A DNA stretch of 58,525 nt, from contig NZJW01000019.1 in the NCBI GenBank assembly GCA_002692055.1, positions 6,433 to 64,957 of the forward strand, given 5' to 3'. How positions within the stretch are numbered: position 1 is the first letter of the stretch; every line of letters begins with the position of its first letter. This DNA comes from Candidatus Pelagibacter sp. (GTDB taxonomy: Bacteria > Pseudomonadota > Alphaproteobacteria > Pelagibacterales > Pelagibacteraceae). Of the stretch, positions 21,464 to 32,929 are shown piece by piece. The notes beneath the pieces were generated by a model. The model was given only the letters and a program-made list of their open reading frames with translations, did no database searches and had not been told where the DNA came from. Made by a program: the position numbers and the translations under genes.

Positions 21464-23152
21464 ATGAATATTAAAGATTTAAATAATCTATATGAGCTTT
21501 TTTGCTTACAAAGTAAAAAATATAAAAATACTGACTTTCTGCATTCAATTAGAAAAAACAAATCTATAGAATCTCTAAGTTGGTATAACGTTAATAAAAA
21601 AACAGAATCAATAGCTAATTTTCTTTTTAAAAAAGGGGTTAAAAGAGGAGACAGAATCATGCTTGTCTCAGAAGGAAGACCTGAATGGATGATTAGTGAC
21701 CTAGCAATTATCAAAATAGGCGCAATAACTGTACCAAACTATACAACGTACACTCAAAAAGATTTTGAGTTTGTACTAAAAGATTGCCAACCGAAAGGGT
21801 TAATAGTTTCAAATGATAAATTATATAAAGTGATATTAAATGCTTCCAAAAAAATAAATTTTAATTTTGAATTTGTAATAAGTTTTGACCAACTAAATAA
21901 TACTGAATATTTTAAAGAAATCGAAAATAATCAAGAACAAGTATCATATAATCCTAGTAGAAAAGATCCTGCATGCATTATTTACACATCTGGGACACAA
22001 GGTAATCCTAAAGGAGTTATATTAAGTCATGGCGGAATATTAGCAAATTGTGAAGATGCAAAATATTTAGTCGAAAAGTTGCAGATCAAGAATCCTAGAT
22101 TTTTGACATGGTTACCATTGTCACATTCTTATGAACATACCGTTCAATTTGTACAAATTTCTTTAGGTGCAAAAGTTTATTATTCACCAATTATAGAGCA
22201 GCTTCTTGATAATATAAAGTTAGTAAAACCACATGTCCTAACTGCTGTGCCAAGATTTTATAATAATTTATATAATAAAATGCAGACCTCAGTAAAAAAA
22301 GCATCAAATTTTAAAAAAGCAATATTCTACAAAACTATAGAGTTAGGTAAAAAAAAATTTAATGAGGAAAAATTAGCAATAAAAGAAAAAATAATTAATA
22401 AAGCTTTAGATATACTAGTTAGGAAAAAAATCATTTCTAGTTTTGGAGGTAATTTGAAAGCTTTTGTGTCTGGGGGAGGGCCGTTAGATAAAAATGTTGG
22501 ATTGTTCTTAAATGCATTAGGTTTGAAGACTTTGCAGGGATATGGGTTAACAGAAACATCTCCCGTAGTTTCGTGCAATCCAGTAAATAAAATAAAAATT
22601 GATACGGTTGGAACAATTTTTTCAAATAATAAGGTCAAAATATCAAATGACGGAGAAATATTGGTTAAAGGTGAAAATGTAATGTTAGGATATTGGAATA
22701 ATCATGAAGCAACTAAAGCAGTAATTAAAAATGAATGGTTACATACCGGAGATATTGGAGAGATAGATGATGAAGGTTATTTAAAAATTACAGATAGAAA
22801 AAAGGATATAATAGTTACAGTTGGTGGAGATAATATTTCTCCATCGAAAATCGAAAACTTACTTTGTTTAAATAATGAGATAGAGCAAGCATATGTTGAA
22901 GGAGATAATCAAAAATATCTAGTATGTTTGCTTGTTTTAAATAAAAATTTTAATAGAAACGATGAAAAAATAAAAAAAATTATTGAAGAAACAAATAAAG
23001 AATTGACTCAAATCGAAAGAATAAAAAAATTTGAAGTAATTAAAGAAGAATTTACAATTAATAATGAATTATTGACACCGACTATGAAAATTAGACGACA
23101 TAAAATTAAATTAAAATATAAAATAATTTTAGAAAATTTTTATAAACATTAA
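21464..23152 (+). CDS. AMP-dependent long-chain acyl-CoA synthetase-like ligase
   Basis: IIYTSGTQGNPKGVILSHGG; LQGYGLTETSPVVS; GDIGEIDDEGYLKITDRKKDIIV. Confidence 0.93.
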   Translation: MNIKDLNNLYELFCLQSKKYKNTDFLHSIRKNKSIESLSWYNVNKKTESIANFLFKKGVKRGDRIMLVSEGRPEWMISDLAIIKIGAITVPNYTTYTQKDFEFVLKDCQPKGLIVSNDKLYKVILNASKKINFNFEFVISFDQLNNTEYFKEIENNQEQVSYNPSRKDPACIIYTSGTQGNPKGVILSHGGILANCEDAKYLVEKLQIKNPRFLTWLPLSHSYEHTVQFVQISLGAKVYYSPIIEQLLDNIKLVKPHVLTAVPRFYNNLYNKMQTSVKKASNFKKAIFYKTIELGKKKFNEEKLAIKEKIINKALDILVRKKIISSFGGNLKAFVSGGGPLDKNVGLFLNALGLKTLQGYGLTETSPVVSCNPVNKIKIDTVGTIFSNNKVKISNDGEILVKGENVMLGYWNNHEATKAVIKNEWLHTGDIGEIDDEGYLKITDRKKDIIVTVGGDNISPSKIENLLCLNNEIEQAYVEGDNQKYLVCLLVLNKNFNRNDEKIKKIIEETNKELTQIERIKKFEVIKEEFTINNELLTPTMKIRRHKIKLKYKIILENFYKH

Positions 23153-23246: not shown

Positions 23247-23277
23247 TTGACATTAATCACGAATTAGTTTTTAAGTT
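23247..23277 (+). promoter_or_regulatory. candidate promoter for the Lys-rich miniprotein
   Basis: TTGACA at 23247-23252 with an AT-rich TAAGTT-like -10 at 23272-23277 (19 nt spacer). Confidence 0.4.
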
Positions 23278-23336
23278 AATTAACGAATCACATAACAATT
23301 TATGTGATACTCCAAACTTTAAAGAGAGGAACGGAG

Positions 23337-23432
23337 ATGGCTAAACGTAGAAAAAAAGCTAAAAAAGCTAAAAAAGCTAAGAAAGCTAAAAAAGGTAAAA
23401 AGAAAGCTAAGAAAAGAAAGAAAAAAAGATAG
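23337..23432 (+). CDS. 31-aa Lys/Ala-repeat basic miniprotein (histone H1-tail-like)
   Basis: Not in ORF track: MAKRRKKAKKAKKAKKAKKGKKKAKKRKKKR*, 23 of 31 residues K/R; purine-rich SD (AGAGAGGAACGGAG) upstream, terminator downstream. Confidence 0.8.
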   Translation: MAKRRKKAKKAKKAKKAKKGKKKAKKRKKKR

Positions 23433-23464: not shown

Positions 23465-23500
23465 AACGCTCTTCTATTTTTAGAAGGGCGTTTTTTTTTC
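23465..23500. terminator. bidirectional intrinsic terminator between the Lys-rich miniprotein gene and carD
   Basis: AACGCTCTTCT-atttt-AGAAGGGCGTT hairpin followed by T9 on + and preceded by an A run (T run on -). Confidence 0.85.
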
Positions 23501-24241
23501 GTTAAGAGATGAGTTTTCCTCTGTTTTTTTTCCAAGAGATTTATTTAATTTAGCCTTGCCTTCATCTTCAGATAATTTAAGCACAATAGATACTTCTCCA
23601 AGTAATCTATCATATGCTTTTTCAAACAATTGACGTTCACTATAAGATTGATCGATCGGCATATCAGTATTTTTATTTAGATCCCTAACTACCTCTGCAA
23701 TTAAATAAATATCTCCAGAATTAATTTTTTGCTCATACTCCGCTGCTCTTCTACTCCACATAGTCCTTTTTATTTTTGCTTTACCTTTTAATATGCCCAA
23801 AGCTTTATTTACTTGATTAGAACTGGATAAGGATCTTAAATGTTGTTGTTGATTAGTAGGAATTGTGAGATTTAATCGATCTTTAGTGATTTCAATTTTA
23901 TAAACACTCACTTCAATATTTGCGATATTCAACTTATCAATAGATATAATTTGCCCTATTCCATGTTTAGGGTAAATTACGTAATCTTTTACTTTGTAAA
24001 TTCTTTTTTCATTTTCTTGTTTTCGAACCTTTTTTATCTCAACGACATCATTTTGTTGCCCCTGTCTAATATTGGGCGATTGGGATGATTTTTTTTCTAA
24101 GAAGTTTTTTTTGGCCTTTTTATCTTTTAATTTTGACTTTTTTTTTACCTTACTTTTTTTAGGAATTTTTTTAGAGGTTTTTTTAAGAACCTTCTTTTTT
24201 TTTATATTTTTTTTCGTCTTAAGCTTTTTTGTTTTTGGCAT
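23480..24241 (-). CDS. carD: CarD/CdnL-type transcription factor with a Lys-rich N-terminal extension
   Basis: YKVKDYVIYPKHGIGQIISI RNAP-interacting domain; preceded by a tail with 28 Lys in the first 51 residues. Confidence 0.92.
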   Translation of the reverse strand: MPKTKKLKTKKNIKKKKVLKKTSKKIPKKSKVKKKSKLKDKKAKKNFLEKKSSQSPNIRQGQQNDVVEIKKVRKQENEKRIYKVKDYVIYPKHGIGQIISIDKLNIANIEVSVYKIEITKDRLNLTIPTNQQQHLRSLSSSNQVNKALGILKGKAKIKRTMWSRRAAEYEQKINSGDIYLIAEVVRDLNKNTDMPIDQSYSERQLFEKAYDRLLGEVSIVLKLSEDEGKAKLNKSLGKKTEENSSLNEKKTPF

Positions 24242-25034: not shown

Positions 25035-27506
25035 TTAAACTTTTAATTTTTGTAAAATAGAAAATACGTTTCCTTTATTTTTTTTTATAGTTTTCTTATA
25101 CTTTTTTTGAATAAATTTAAATTCAATATCTTCAGCAGACTCCATGCATTGATAACCTAAATATCTTATAAATTTTATAAAATCATTTTTATTACAACCA
25201 AGTAAATTCAAAATTTTTGAGTTAAGTTTAAATTTATAATTTTTTGAATTTGATAAGATTTCTAAAAATAATCTTTCCAAAATATCTATTCTAATAATAA
25301 ATTGACCAAAAGTTTCAAATCCACAAATTCTTAAAAAATCTTTATTTTTATTTTTAAAATTACTCAAGAAATTTAAACCAAAAGTAGGATATACCATATC
25401 TTTTGAGCTAAAAAAGCATTTCCATAAAATACTTTTAAATTTTATTGCTTCTGGTCTTATCATCCGTGGTTGATATATATGATATTTCCCAATTTTAATT
25501 CCACTTTGTCTTAAAATATAACGTTCTTCTTTAGAAAGATTTTTCACTATCTCGTTGGCTTGTTCTCTCCTCAAAACACCATTGTTCTCAAACAACTGAT
25601 AAGCAAGACCTCTTGCAAATGAATTTTTAAATACTGCTTTTTCTATTGATATTAAATCTTTTAAGTATTTTTTTTTCTGATCATTAATCCAATTTCCAAT
25701 AGCTAATTTGAGTTTGATATATTGCCCCTCCTCAACTGTATCGTCTGTATAAAGTTTAATCTGTGGGTTCAAGTAATTAGTTCCAGGCTTAAGTTCTGCA
25801 ATTTTCTTATTATTCCAATATACTTTATAATCATCTCTCAATTCCAGTGTCTCTATATTACTTATAATATATTTAATTCTCTTATTTAGTTCTTCTTGAG
25901 CACCCGATCTAGCTGCTTTTTTTAAGGACTTAATATCGGTATCTAAATTTGATTTTGAATAATTTAGTTCTATTTTGAGACCGTTTAATTTTCCAATAAA
26001 ATGATCATTGATATAAATTTTATTTTCCTCAACAATTTTTGTATTTAATTGTATATCTTGCTTCAACCCTTTAGATAAAATACTTATTCTTTTGTCCACA
26101 AAACTTTTTGATAGTTCCTCATGTAACTTCTCAGATAATTTATCCTCAATGTCTTTCGTTTTTGCAATCCAGTAATCCGCATTTTCAACCCAATTACTTT
26201 TGTTAGAAACATAAGACCACGTTCTTACATAGGATATTCTATTCGAGAGGGTATCTATGTTACCTTCATAGTTATCTAAATTAATTAATTGTTGTTTCAT
26301 CCAGCTGTTATTAACCTTCCCATTTTTAGAAGATAAGAATGAAAATACTTTTAAAATAATTTCCGTATGTTCATTGTAAGAACTTTTTGTAAAATCTGGT
26401 ATTTGACAACATTCCCACAATAACTTCACATATTCAGAGTTGTTTACAAAATTCAATCTTGAGTCCTCAGAAACAAGGTACCTAAAGGTGCTTTCATCGA
26501 TTAGATCTTTGTTACGAGATAATACTTTGTCGTGTGGTTTTTTATTTAAGCTTTGAATTAAATCCATACTAGATGAAAAATCTAGTACATTATTTCTCCA
26601 ATAAATATTTAAAACATCATCAAATTTATGATTTTCAACTTTATCAATTTGTTCATCAGTGAGTTTTTCGCAATCACCTGTTGTACCAAAAGAACCGTCA
26701 TTCATGTATCGTCCTGCTCGTCCACTTATTTGACCAATTTCACTATCCCTAAGATTTCTTATTTGTTTGCCGTCGTATTTTTTAATACCACTAAAATATA
26801 TATTTTCGATATCCATATTGATACCCATACCAATCGCATCGGTAGCAATAAGAAAATCAACATCACCAGATTGATAGATTTCTACTTGAGAATTTCTAGT
26901 TTTTGGGCTCAAAGATCCCATAACTACTGCAGCTCCGCCTTTTTGCCGTCTTACAAATTCAGCAAGTGCATAAACATCATCTATCGAAAAAGCTATTATT
27001 GCGCTACGTGGTTTTATCCGAGATATTTTTTTAAAACCAGAATATGTCAATTTTGATAGTCTATTTCTGTAAATAAATTCTGTTTCAGGCACTAAATATG
27101 AAATAAGAGTTTTGATTGTATCTGAACCAAGAAACATGGTTAATTTATCACCACGATAATTTAAAAGCCTTTCTGTAAATATATGACCTCTTTCCGGATC
27201 AGCACACATTTGTATTTCATCTATAGCTGAAAATTCAAAATTAATATCTAATGGCATAGATTCAACAGTACACAGATAAAAATCCGCTTTAGGAGGAACT
27301 ATTTTTTCTTCTCCTGTTATAAGAGCAACACGTTCACAACCAATCTTTTTAACAACTTTATCGTAAACTTCTCTTGCTAATAACCTTAATGGAAATCCAA
27401 TTACACCATTTCCATATTCGAGCATTCTTTCAATTGCTAAGAAAGTTTTTCCTGTGTTTGTTGGTCCTAAGATTGCTAAAATTTTTGATTCTGTTTCTTG
27501 TGGCAT
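25035..27506 (-). CDS. SUV3-like DEAD/DEAH-box RNA helicase
   Basis: ILGPTNTGKTFLAIERM; FSAIDEIQMCADPERGHIFTERLL; DAIGMGINMDI; QISGRAGR. Confidence 0.92.
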   Translation of the reverse strand: MPQETESKILAILGPTNTGKTFLAIERMLEYGNGVIGFPLRLLAREVYDKVVKKIGCERVALITGEEKIVPPKADFYLCTVESMPLDINFEFSAIDEIQMCADPERGHIFTERLLNYRGDKLTMFLGSDTIKTLISYLVPETEFIYRNRLSKLTYSGFKKISRIKPRSAIIAFSIDDVYALAEFVRRQKGGAAVVMGSLSPKTRNSQVEIYQSGDVDFLIATDAIGMGINMDIENIYFSGIKKYDGKQIRNLRDSEIGQISGRAGRYMNDGSFGTTGDCEKLTDEQIDKVENHKFDDVLNIYWRNNVLDFSSSMDLIQSLNKKPHDKVLSRNKDLIDESTFRYLVSEDSRLNFVNNSEYVKLLWECCQIPDFTKSSYNEHTEIILKVFSFLSSKNGKVNNSWMKQQLINLDNYEGNIDTLSNRISYVRTWSYVSNKSNWVENADYWIAKTKDIEDKLSEKLHEELSKSFVDKRISILSKGLKQDIQLNTKIVEENKIYINDHFIGKLNGLKIELNYSKSNLDTDIKSLKKAARSGAQEELNKRIKYIISNIETLELRDDYKVYWNNKKIAELKPGTNYLNPQIKLYTDDTVEEGQYIKLKLAIGNWINDQKKKYLKDLISIEKAVFKNSFARGLAYQLFENNGVLRREQANEIVKNLSKEERYILRQSGIKIGKYHIYQPRMIRPEAIKFKSILWKCFFSSKDMVYPTFGLNFLSNFKNKNKDFLRICGFETFGQFIIRIDILERLFLEILSNSKNYKFKLNSKILNLLGCNKNDFIKFIRYLGYQCMESAEDIEFKFIQKKYKKTIKKNKGNVFSILQKLKV

Positions 27507-27593
27507 AATGATTTTGACATACTATATTTGGATAAAACTATAGAACAAATTAGGGATAAAAAGGGACCGAATCAACCCTTAAAATGTTCTTAT

Positions 27594-31450: not shown

Positions 31451-32929
31451 TTACTTCGTGTAAAATTTTAATTTAACTGAATTCAAGTATATAATAATAA
31501 AAATTACAGGCAGACCCAATATGGCAGTGAATATAAAAAAAAGTGGATAATTCAGTATATCTACGATTGTGCCAGAATAACCTGCAATTAATTTTGGAAT
31601 AAAAAGCATTAAAGAAGTAAAAAGAGCGTACTGAGTAGCAGTGAACTTGATTGAAGTTAAAGAAGATAGATAAACCACAAATGACGCTCCTGCAAATCCA
31701 CTCGCTAAATTATCTGCAATTATAATTGTAGCTAAATACACCAAGTTTTTATCTATAATTGCCAAGAGAGCAAATAGTAAATTTGTAGAAGATGCTGCTA
31801 TTGCTCCAATTAATAAGCTTTTATAGGTGCTAAATTTCATTGCACAAAAACCTCCAAGAAACCCTCCGCATATCGTAGCAATCAGCCCGAAGAACTTTGA
31901 AAATGTTGCTATATTTTTAATTTCATATCCCTTTTCTAAATAAAAAATGTTAGCCATAACACCCATTACAACATCAGCTATTCTGTAAAGACCAATAAGT
32001 AATAAAATTATTATTGCTATTTTTCGATATCTTTTAAAAAAATTGGTAATTGGTTCTATAAATATTTCTCTAGATTTTTTTTTTGGTAAAAATTTTATTT
32101 TTTCTAAAATATAAAGGGTTATTAGAGAAGATACAAAACTAAATAATATTTTTGTTAAACTAAAAAGAAAAGTAAATAAATAGTTTGAATTATCAATTAT
32201 TGGAAAATTCAAAAAAACAACGAAAAAAATTATAACAGAAAATAATGTAGAGATAGTAAATTTCACTTGGCTAATTTTGCCTATTTTATTTTGATTTTTT
32301 GTATTCGGTTCTTTCGCAAATATAGTTGAAATTAGACCTATACCCATAAACAAACTTATAATTTGATAAACGTGTTTCCACACATTTTGTTGATATGATT
32401 CGCCACCAAAAATTGCTGCCAGCCAAAGACTGCCAGCTCCTGAAACAATCATAGCCACTCTATATCCTGCCAGATACATAGACGATAACGGCCCCTGTTT
32501 TTTTTCAGGAGCTGACTCAATTCTAAATGCATCAATTACTATGTCCTGTGTAGCGCTGAAAAAAGCTATCAGCACGATTGATAACACCATAAATTTTAAG
32601 CCACTTTGAGGATTTGAATACGAAGCCAAAATAATTGAAAAAAAAATTAAAAGTTGAGTTGTTAACAACCAACTCTTCCGGTGTCCGATTTTTCCTAAAA
32701 TAGGAATTTGAAATTTATCAACTATCGGGCTCCATAAAAACTTAAAAGAATATGCAAATCCTGCCCAACTAAATAATGTTACAGTACTTCTGTCAATACC
32801 CGCAGTTATTAACCAAACTGATAGAGTCGAAAAAACTAACATTATTGGCAGACCAGCTGAAAAACCTAGGCCTCCCATTATTATGTTTTCCTTTTTTAAA
32901 AAAATATTAAGTTCTTTAATCATTAACAA
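31451..32929 (-). CDS. AmpG-like muropeptide MFS transporter
   Basis: GGLGFSAGLPIMLVFSTLSVWL; FLWSPIVDKFQIPILGKIGHRKSWL; STQDIVIDAFRIE. Confidence 0.88.
   Translation of the reverse strand: MLMIKELNIFLKKENIIMGGLGFSAGLPIMLVFSTLSVWLITAGIDRSTVTLFSWAGFAYSFKFLWSPIVDKFQIPILGKIGHRKSWLLTTQLLIFFSIILASYSNPQSGLKFMVLSIVLIAFFSATQDIVIDAFRIESAPEKKQGPLSSMYLAGYRVAMIVSGAGSLWLAAIFGGESYQQNVWKHVYQIISLFMGIGLISTIFAKEPNTKNQNKIGKISQVKFTISTLFSVIIFFVVFLNFPIIDNSNYLFTFLFSLTKILFSFVSSLITLYILEKIKFLPKKKSREIFIEPITNFFKRYRKIAIIILLLIGLYRIADVVMGVMANIFYLEKGYEIKNIATFSKFFGLIATICGGFLGGFCAMKFSTYKSLLIGAIAASSTNLLFALLAIIDKNLVYLATIIIADNLASGFAGASFVVYLSSLTSIKFTATQYALFTSLMLFIPKLIAGYSGTIVDILNYPLFFIFTAILGLPVIFIIIYLNSVKLKFYTK

Follow-up and report, generated by a model that had tools for sequence, protein, structure and literature searches.

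A short Lys/Arg-rich gene convergent to carD is conserved across SAR11 and, in several lineages, shares a promoter/leader element with HU

Introduction

Among the proteins that resemble the product described here, the ribosomal mini-proteins of 24–33 aa are similarly basic, and bTHX, bS22, and eL41 are of nearly fixed length and contain residues other than Lys, Arg, and Ala. The H1-like proteins, namely AlgP of Pseudomonas, chlamydial Hc1/Hc2, and the HupB tails, are Lys/Ala(/Pro)-rich, repetitive, and variable in length, all of which are features that the SAR11 mini-protein shares; one of these repeat proteins, AlgP, is found in association with polyphosphate granules (PMC9239181).

The regulatory sequence discussed below has its closest counterpart in the Caulobacterales GcrA/CcrM regulon. 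In Caulobacter, TGATTCG (YGAKTCK) is the extended motif tied to activation by GcrA (PMC7987155), and the GANTC-bearing promoters that are activated at 40–60 min carry the site between -10 and -35 (PMC4287350). For the SAR11 order, ctrA is reported to be missing (PMC2877005), few likely conserved GcrA targets have been reported for Ca. Pelagibacter ubique (PMC7987155), and GANTC in Pelagibacter is methylated and linked to the cell cycle (PMC9516812).

Here, we describe a mini-gene from a window of 58,525 nt (the whole stretch of DNA analyzed), which belongs to an 871-kb draft SAR11 genome (G000) whose relatives include HIMB114. The mini-gene is a conserved core gene of SAR11 that is found order-wide beside carD, preceded by a promoter-like sequence of its own and a leader with a 5′ hairpin, and followed by a terminator. 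New here are the invariant CGAATCA that follows TTGAC upstream of this gene and the finding that almost no promoter except that of HU (in family f2 and four genera of family f1) has this element at a comparable spacing.

Results

The mini-gene occupies positions 23337–23432 on the forward strand (96 nt) and encodes the 31-aa product MAKRRKKAKKAKKAKKAKKGKKKAKKRKKKR, in which Lys and Arg make up 23 of the 31 residues (74%), exactly as a sequence-only reading of the window had stated. The same reading had proposed an upstream region of ~180 bp, a TTGACA-like promoter, and a purine-rich Shine-Dalgarno (SD) sequence, each of which was recovered: (i) the preceding acyl-CoA-synthetase-like gene ends at 23152, leaving an intergenic gap of 184 bp; (ii) a -35 element, TTGACA, lies at 23247–23252 (+); and (iii) GAGAGG lies at 23324–23329 (+), where the relatives mostly contain GGGAG or GGGAGG. 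The ORF had also been described as falling below gene-caller cut-offs, which is true of many relatives (20–29 aa), whereas the 96-nt copy in the window is near the usual minima. Further, 100 simulated windows that preserved trinucleotide composition contained no ORF of ≥20 aa with ≥60% Lys+Arg, so that composition alone is insufficient to yield the mini-gene ORF. A 42-aa form starting from an in-frame GTG at 23304 was rejected because this codon falls inside the leader hairpin and ahead of the SD.

Downstream, a hairpin followed by a T-run (23466–23499, no strand assigned) had been taken for a dedicated terminator. However, its stem (23466–23475 and 23482–23491) overlaps the 3′ end of carD (23480–24241, −; PF21095 and PF02559; stop codon at 23480–23482), the convergent neighbor that served as our synteny anchor. 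Since this hairpin lies between convergent genes, overlaps the carD end, and is flanked by an A-run and, at its opposite side, a T-run, the terminator looks bidirectional and shared, and the relatives contain a similarly placed hairpin. The CarD proteins of SAR11 themselves contain a Lys-rich N-terminal extension of ~75–80 residues ahead of the RID domain (24015–24241, −, in the window), with the Pfam match beginning at residue 82, and the gene that encodes this extension adjoins the Lys-rich mini-gene.

Using carD as an anchor, we compared loci from named genomes and from 61 genomes (the window's own plus relatives). Wherever the sequence beyond carD was long enough, the SAR11 locus contained a short, hyper-basic ORF that converges on carD, and the SAR11 loci that lack it have a contig edge within ~100 nt of carD. 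The mini-gene is spread over two families (f1 and f2) and about 17 genera, with products of 20–99 aa and charges of +15 to +53. The ends of the mini-protein are conserved (MAKRRKKAKK...KKRRRR), and its middle varies in length. Members of f1 (20–50 aa) carry the MAKRRKKAKK start and Arg-rich ends and consist almost exclusively of Lys, Arg, Ala, Gly, Thr, Pro, and Ser, while members of f2 start with MEELKVIFAKAKKKAKKKAAPKKKK and reach up to 99 aa through the expansion of AAPKKKKK repeats, which both expand and contract. In near-identical f2 genomes (L023, L029, L030, L038, and L039), the mini-proteins differ by whole units of 19–20 residues, which indicates that repeat number changes quickly.

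Conservation of the ORF beside carD, which the sequence-only reading had proposed as a check, was therefore strongly borne out. Frameshifts or stops amid conserved flanks, which it had named as counter-evidence, were unseen except at L074 (G013:C5), where the frame is off by one base in an A run, probably a homopolymer error of assembly or sequencing. Separately, one contig (G035:C6; L010 and L058) contains carD and the mini-gene twice, the duplicated region being mirrored, which is probably an assembly artifact.

Outside SAR11, the alphaproteobacterial carD loci examined had no hyper-basic ORF alongside; a class-wide profile search with the mini-protein, which is insensitive on low-complexity sequence, returned the window's own copy alone (E = 0.004); and a scan of other alphaproteobacteria with the promoter pattern gave scattered matches, with a Lys/Arg-rich ORF behind none of the 25 loci checked. 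Given the insensitivity of the profile search, absence outside SAR11 rests on carD synteny and the promoter-pattern scan. The window mini-protein was unmatched in NCBIfam up to E = 1, a test weakened by low-complexity sequence, and an Rfam scan gave no match at the locus. Moreover, a search of the open-access literature found no earlier description of the mini-protein, and the region is absent from the intergenic-region table of Meyer et al. 2009 (PMC2704228).

With its tiny size and extreme basicity, the mini-protein resembles bTHX, bS22, and eL41, and a ribosome-associated or rRNA-binding role is the main rival to DNA packaging. The MAKRRKK N terminus, the conserved Arg-rich C terminus, the strong SD, and the codon bias described below would all fit such a role. 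We nevertheless consider it unlikely, because (i) the length of the mini-protein is far from constant, since repeat expansion makes it vary fivefold (20–99 aa) inside a single order, unlike that of an integral ribosomal protein; (ii) the f1 members are almost devoid of residues beyond the seven listed above; (iii) none of 29 members matched Pfam up to E = 10, although profiles are weak on low-complexity sequence; and (iv) HU has the promoter element in common with the mini-gene, all but one of the matches in two promoter scans (below) being the mini-gene or HU.

The ORF is almost certainly real, protein-coding, and under purifying selection on its product, as judged from the following substitution patterns. 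All-purine codons, pooled over 43 related and hence non-independent sequences, comprised 891 AAR (Lys), 221 AGR (Arg), 20 GAR (Glu), and 1 GGR, such that position 1 was A in 1112 and G in 21, and position 3 was A in 821 and G in 312. Glu and Asp are confined to positions 2–3 of the f2 members, and the avoidance of GAR indicates that the ORF is not merely purine-rich RNA. The synonymous-site comparison suggested by the earlier reading likewise favored coding, with 85 synonymous versus 58 amino-acid-changing codon differences between close pairs; 28 of the latter exchange Lys and Arg, and none converts Lys to Glu. Indels between close pairs comprise whole codons and keep the frame. Further, among fourfold-degenerate Ala, Thr, Gly, Pro, and Val codons, the share of NNT is 79% in the f1 copies (related and non-independent), compared with 53% in HU and 41% in the window genes. 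This bias is of the high-expression type, and the mini-gene is probably highly expressed.

Upstream of the ORF, TTGAC is followed by CGAATCA 37–41 nt later in all 43 aligned SAR11 loci, and CGAATCA is 100% conserved in 30 f1 and 13 f2 sequences; the stretch between these two elements is poorly conserved. With a standard sigma-70 layout, this spacing would place CGAATCA at ~+3 to +7 of the predicted transcript (~+3 in the window, where it lies at 23284–23290, +, and contains GAATC, a CcrM GANTC site). CGAATCA forms the 5′ arm of a 5′-terminal leader hairpin, ATCACATAA-CAAT-TTATGTGAT in the window (23287–23308, +; z = -5.9 versus mononucleotide shuffles), which also folds in the relatives and is maintained by compensatory changes: stem position 7 is C-G in 19 sequences, A-T in 7, and T-A in 1, and position 8 is A-T in 5 and T-A in 9. 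A possible second hairpin (23310–23336, +), pairing CTCC with GGAG around the SD, is predicted in the genus of the window and in close relatives.

The promoter-leader-SD pattern was found in 332 of 397 SAR11 genomes (a tally that may count a few f2 genomes matched at HU alone), in 129 of 151 high-quality genomes, and in all 13 genera, whereas the reversed control pattern gave a handful of matches. The mini-gene is the single place in the window's genome where ACGAATCA has TGAT within the next 20 nt. Further CGAATCA/TGATTCG sites are present in the window at 27568–27574, upstream of a Suv3-like helicase gene (25035–27506, −), and at 32396–32402.

A short transcript beside convergent carD, equipped with its own promoter and a terminator and bearing a conserved, covarying 5′ hairpin, could alternatively act as RNA (as a small RNA, a leader peptide, or an antisense of carD), in which case the peptide would be incidental. 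Set against the strong constraint at the protein level, and against an ORF that retains frame and charge at freely changing lengths, such a role is highly improbable. A leader-peptide role was rejected because there is no same-strand downstream gene to control, the terminator and convergent carD coming next.

In f2, the order-wide scan revealed a second promoter with the element, in front of HU, where it was found in at least 18 genomes by adjacency to HU matches or direct reading. In f1, HU leaders at 13 loci in four genera (g1, g6, g8, and g12, which include the window's genus) carry AACGAWTC 18–21 nt before the start codon and ~39 nt after a TTGATT. By contrast, 16 f1 HU loci in seven other genera, including Pelagibacter (g4), are without the GANTC element, and co-regulation of the mini-gene and HU is thus not universal at present. 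HU of the window genome is not in its assembled contigs, in which only distant relatives matched. The f2 HU leaders (L112, L120, L125, L131, and L132) read ACGAATC(A/G)...(C)TCC...GGGG-ATG. In these leaders, CTCC may pair with GGGG around the SD, which would resemble the second mini-gene hairpin in the window's genus.

Whole-genome scans at promoter spacing, for which reversed-pattern controls led us to expect several chance matches, recovered almost no sites other than the mini-gene and HU. TTGACN{29,38}CGAATCA matched the mini-gene in 19 of 19 genomes and otherwise only HU (in two f2 genomes), while TTGAN{30,40}TAACGAWTCR matched four mini-genes, four HU genes, and one other site (G031:C1:1205142-1205194) in 12 genomes. 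HU resembles the mini-protein in being small and basic and in the TTGA...AACGAWTC promoter/leader element (f2 and four f1 genera); it differs in being folded and of ~91–98 aa here, and we claim no sequence relation between the two. From this distribution, we infer that HU once carried the promoter element of the mini-gene and that part of f1 later lost it from HU.

On the opposite strand, CGAATCA reads TGATTCG, the extended form of the CcrM-methylated GANTC motif, and this extended motif (YGAKTCK) is thereby conserved in the mini-gene promoter region at 43 of 43 loci. GcrA is present in 29 of the 31 SAR11 genomes tested, and a RAMA-domain (CcrM-type) methylase of CcrM size is present in all 31, the window's genome having both. 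On these grounds, we infer a putative control of the mini-gene by GcrA. The likeness to the Caulobacterales regulon lies in the extended motif and in the two regulators; the difference is that CGAATCA starts 37–41 nt after the -35 at all 43 loci, that is, at or after the predicted +1 rather than between -35 and -10. With the site downstream of the predicted start, unlike in Caulobacter, activation, repression, and an RNA role are all possible.

That location, together with the presence of CGAATCA within the hairpin in all sequences, would also be consistent with CGAATCA being retained purely for its part in an mRNA hairpin, of which it makes up the 5′ arm, and being unrelated to GcrA or CcrM. 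This explanation is doubtful, though it carries some weight. In the window's clade, a different pairing register leaves the first CGA outside the stem, yet CGAATCA is still invariant, which argues that the sequence itself is under constraint; and the HU leaders that carry the element share ACGAWTC, with A or T as the N of GANTC, without the 3′ arm of the mini-gene.

Discussion

We favor, with moderate confidence, the interpretation that the mini-protein is an H1-tail-like, nucleic-acid-binding polycation, probably nucleoid-associated, and that in the distant past the GcrA/CcrM replication-timing module probably controlled its gene jointly with that of HU. The label H1-like describes composition alone, namely Lys/Ala-rich, low-complexity repeats without acidic residues (also lacking from the repeat region of H1-like proteins), and since no curated model matched, we place the mini-protein in no known family. 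It differs from the H1-like proteins in having no folded domain, such that the f1 members would correspond to the tail alone, and in the absence of any detectable match in Pfam or NCBIfam.

The mini-protein would be equivalent to a histone-H1-type tail that stands free, and it would bind nucleic acid electrostatically, most likely chromosomal DNA, which it would neutralize and condense alongside HU. CGAATCA, at the start of the transcript, would couple transcription of the mini-gene to the GcrA/CcrM methyl-GANTC module, such that its output would track the replication of the locus, and the 5′ hairpin would stabilize the short mRNA. If ancestral HU had the same element, the two packaging proteins would have been made together. 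The more specific proposal, namely that CcrM methylation and GcrA time the synthesis of a free-standing, H1-tail- or protamine-like peptide (along with that of HU in several lineages) to chromosome replication, is tentative, and we hold it to be possible rather than likely.

The sequence-only reading had offered a nucleoid-compacting or an RNA-binding peptide, and these two are still the proper alternatives. A 20-residue Lys/Arg peptide could bind both DNA and RNA, and the element shared with HU tilts the choice toward the nucleoid. Together with the freely varying repeat length, the HU link favors, without proving, a nucleoid polycation over a ribosomal component. The AAPKKKKK repeats of f2 resemble those of AlgP, whose KPAA-repeat tail suggests another role, as a polyphosphate binder, a general counter-ion, or a condensate-forming polycation; the regulatory link that we found is to HU, however, and we regard such a role as improbable.

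In summary, our analyses add to the streamlined SAR11 genomes a near-universal gene that is absent from the protein-family libraries searched, and whose product ordinary proteomics would overlook, because trypsin would fragment it. The GcrA/CcrM module gains a conserved candidate target in an order in which ctrA is reported to be missing and few conserved GcrA targets were predicted, and the mini-protein offers a minimal natural system for the effect of a 20–30-residue polycation on a bacterial nucleoid. If the more specific proposal of replication-timed synthesis is true, the mini-gene would constitute a bacterial parallel to the S-phase-coupled supply of histones, in SAR11, which are among the ocean's most abundant cells.
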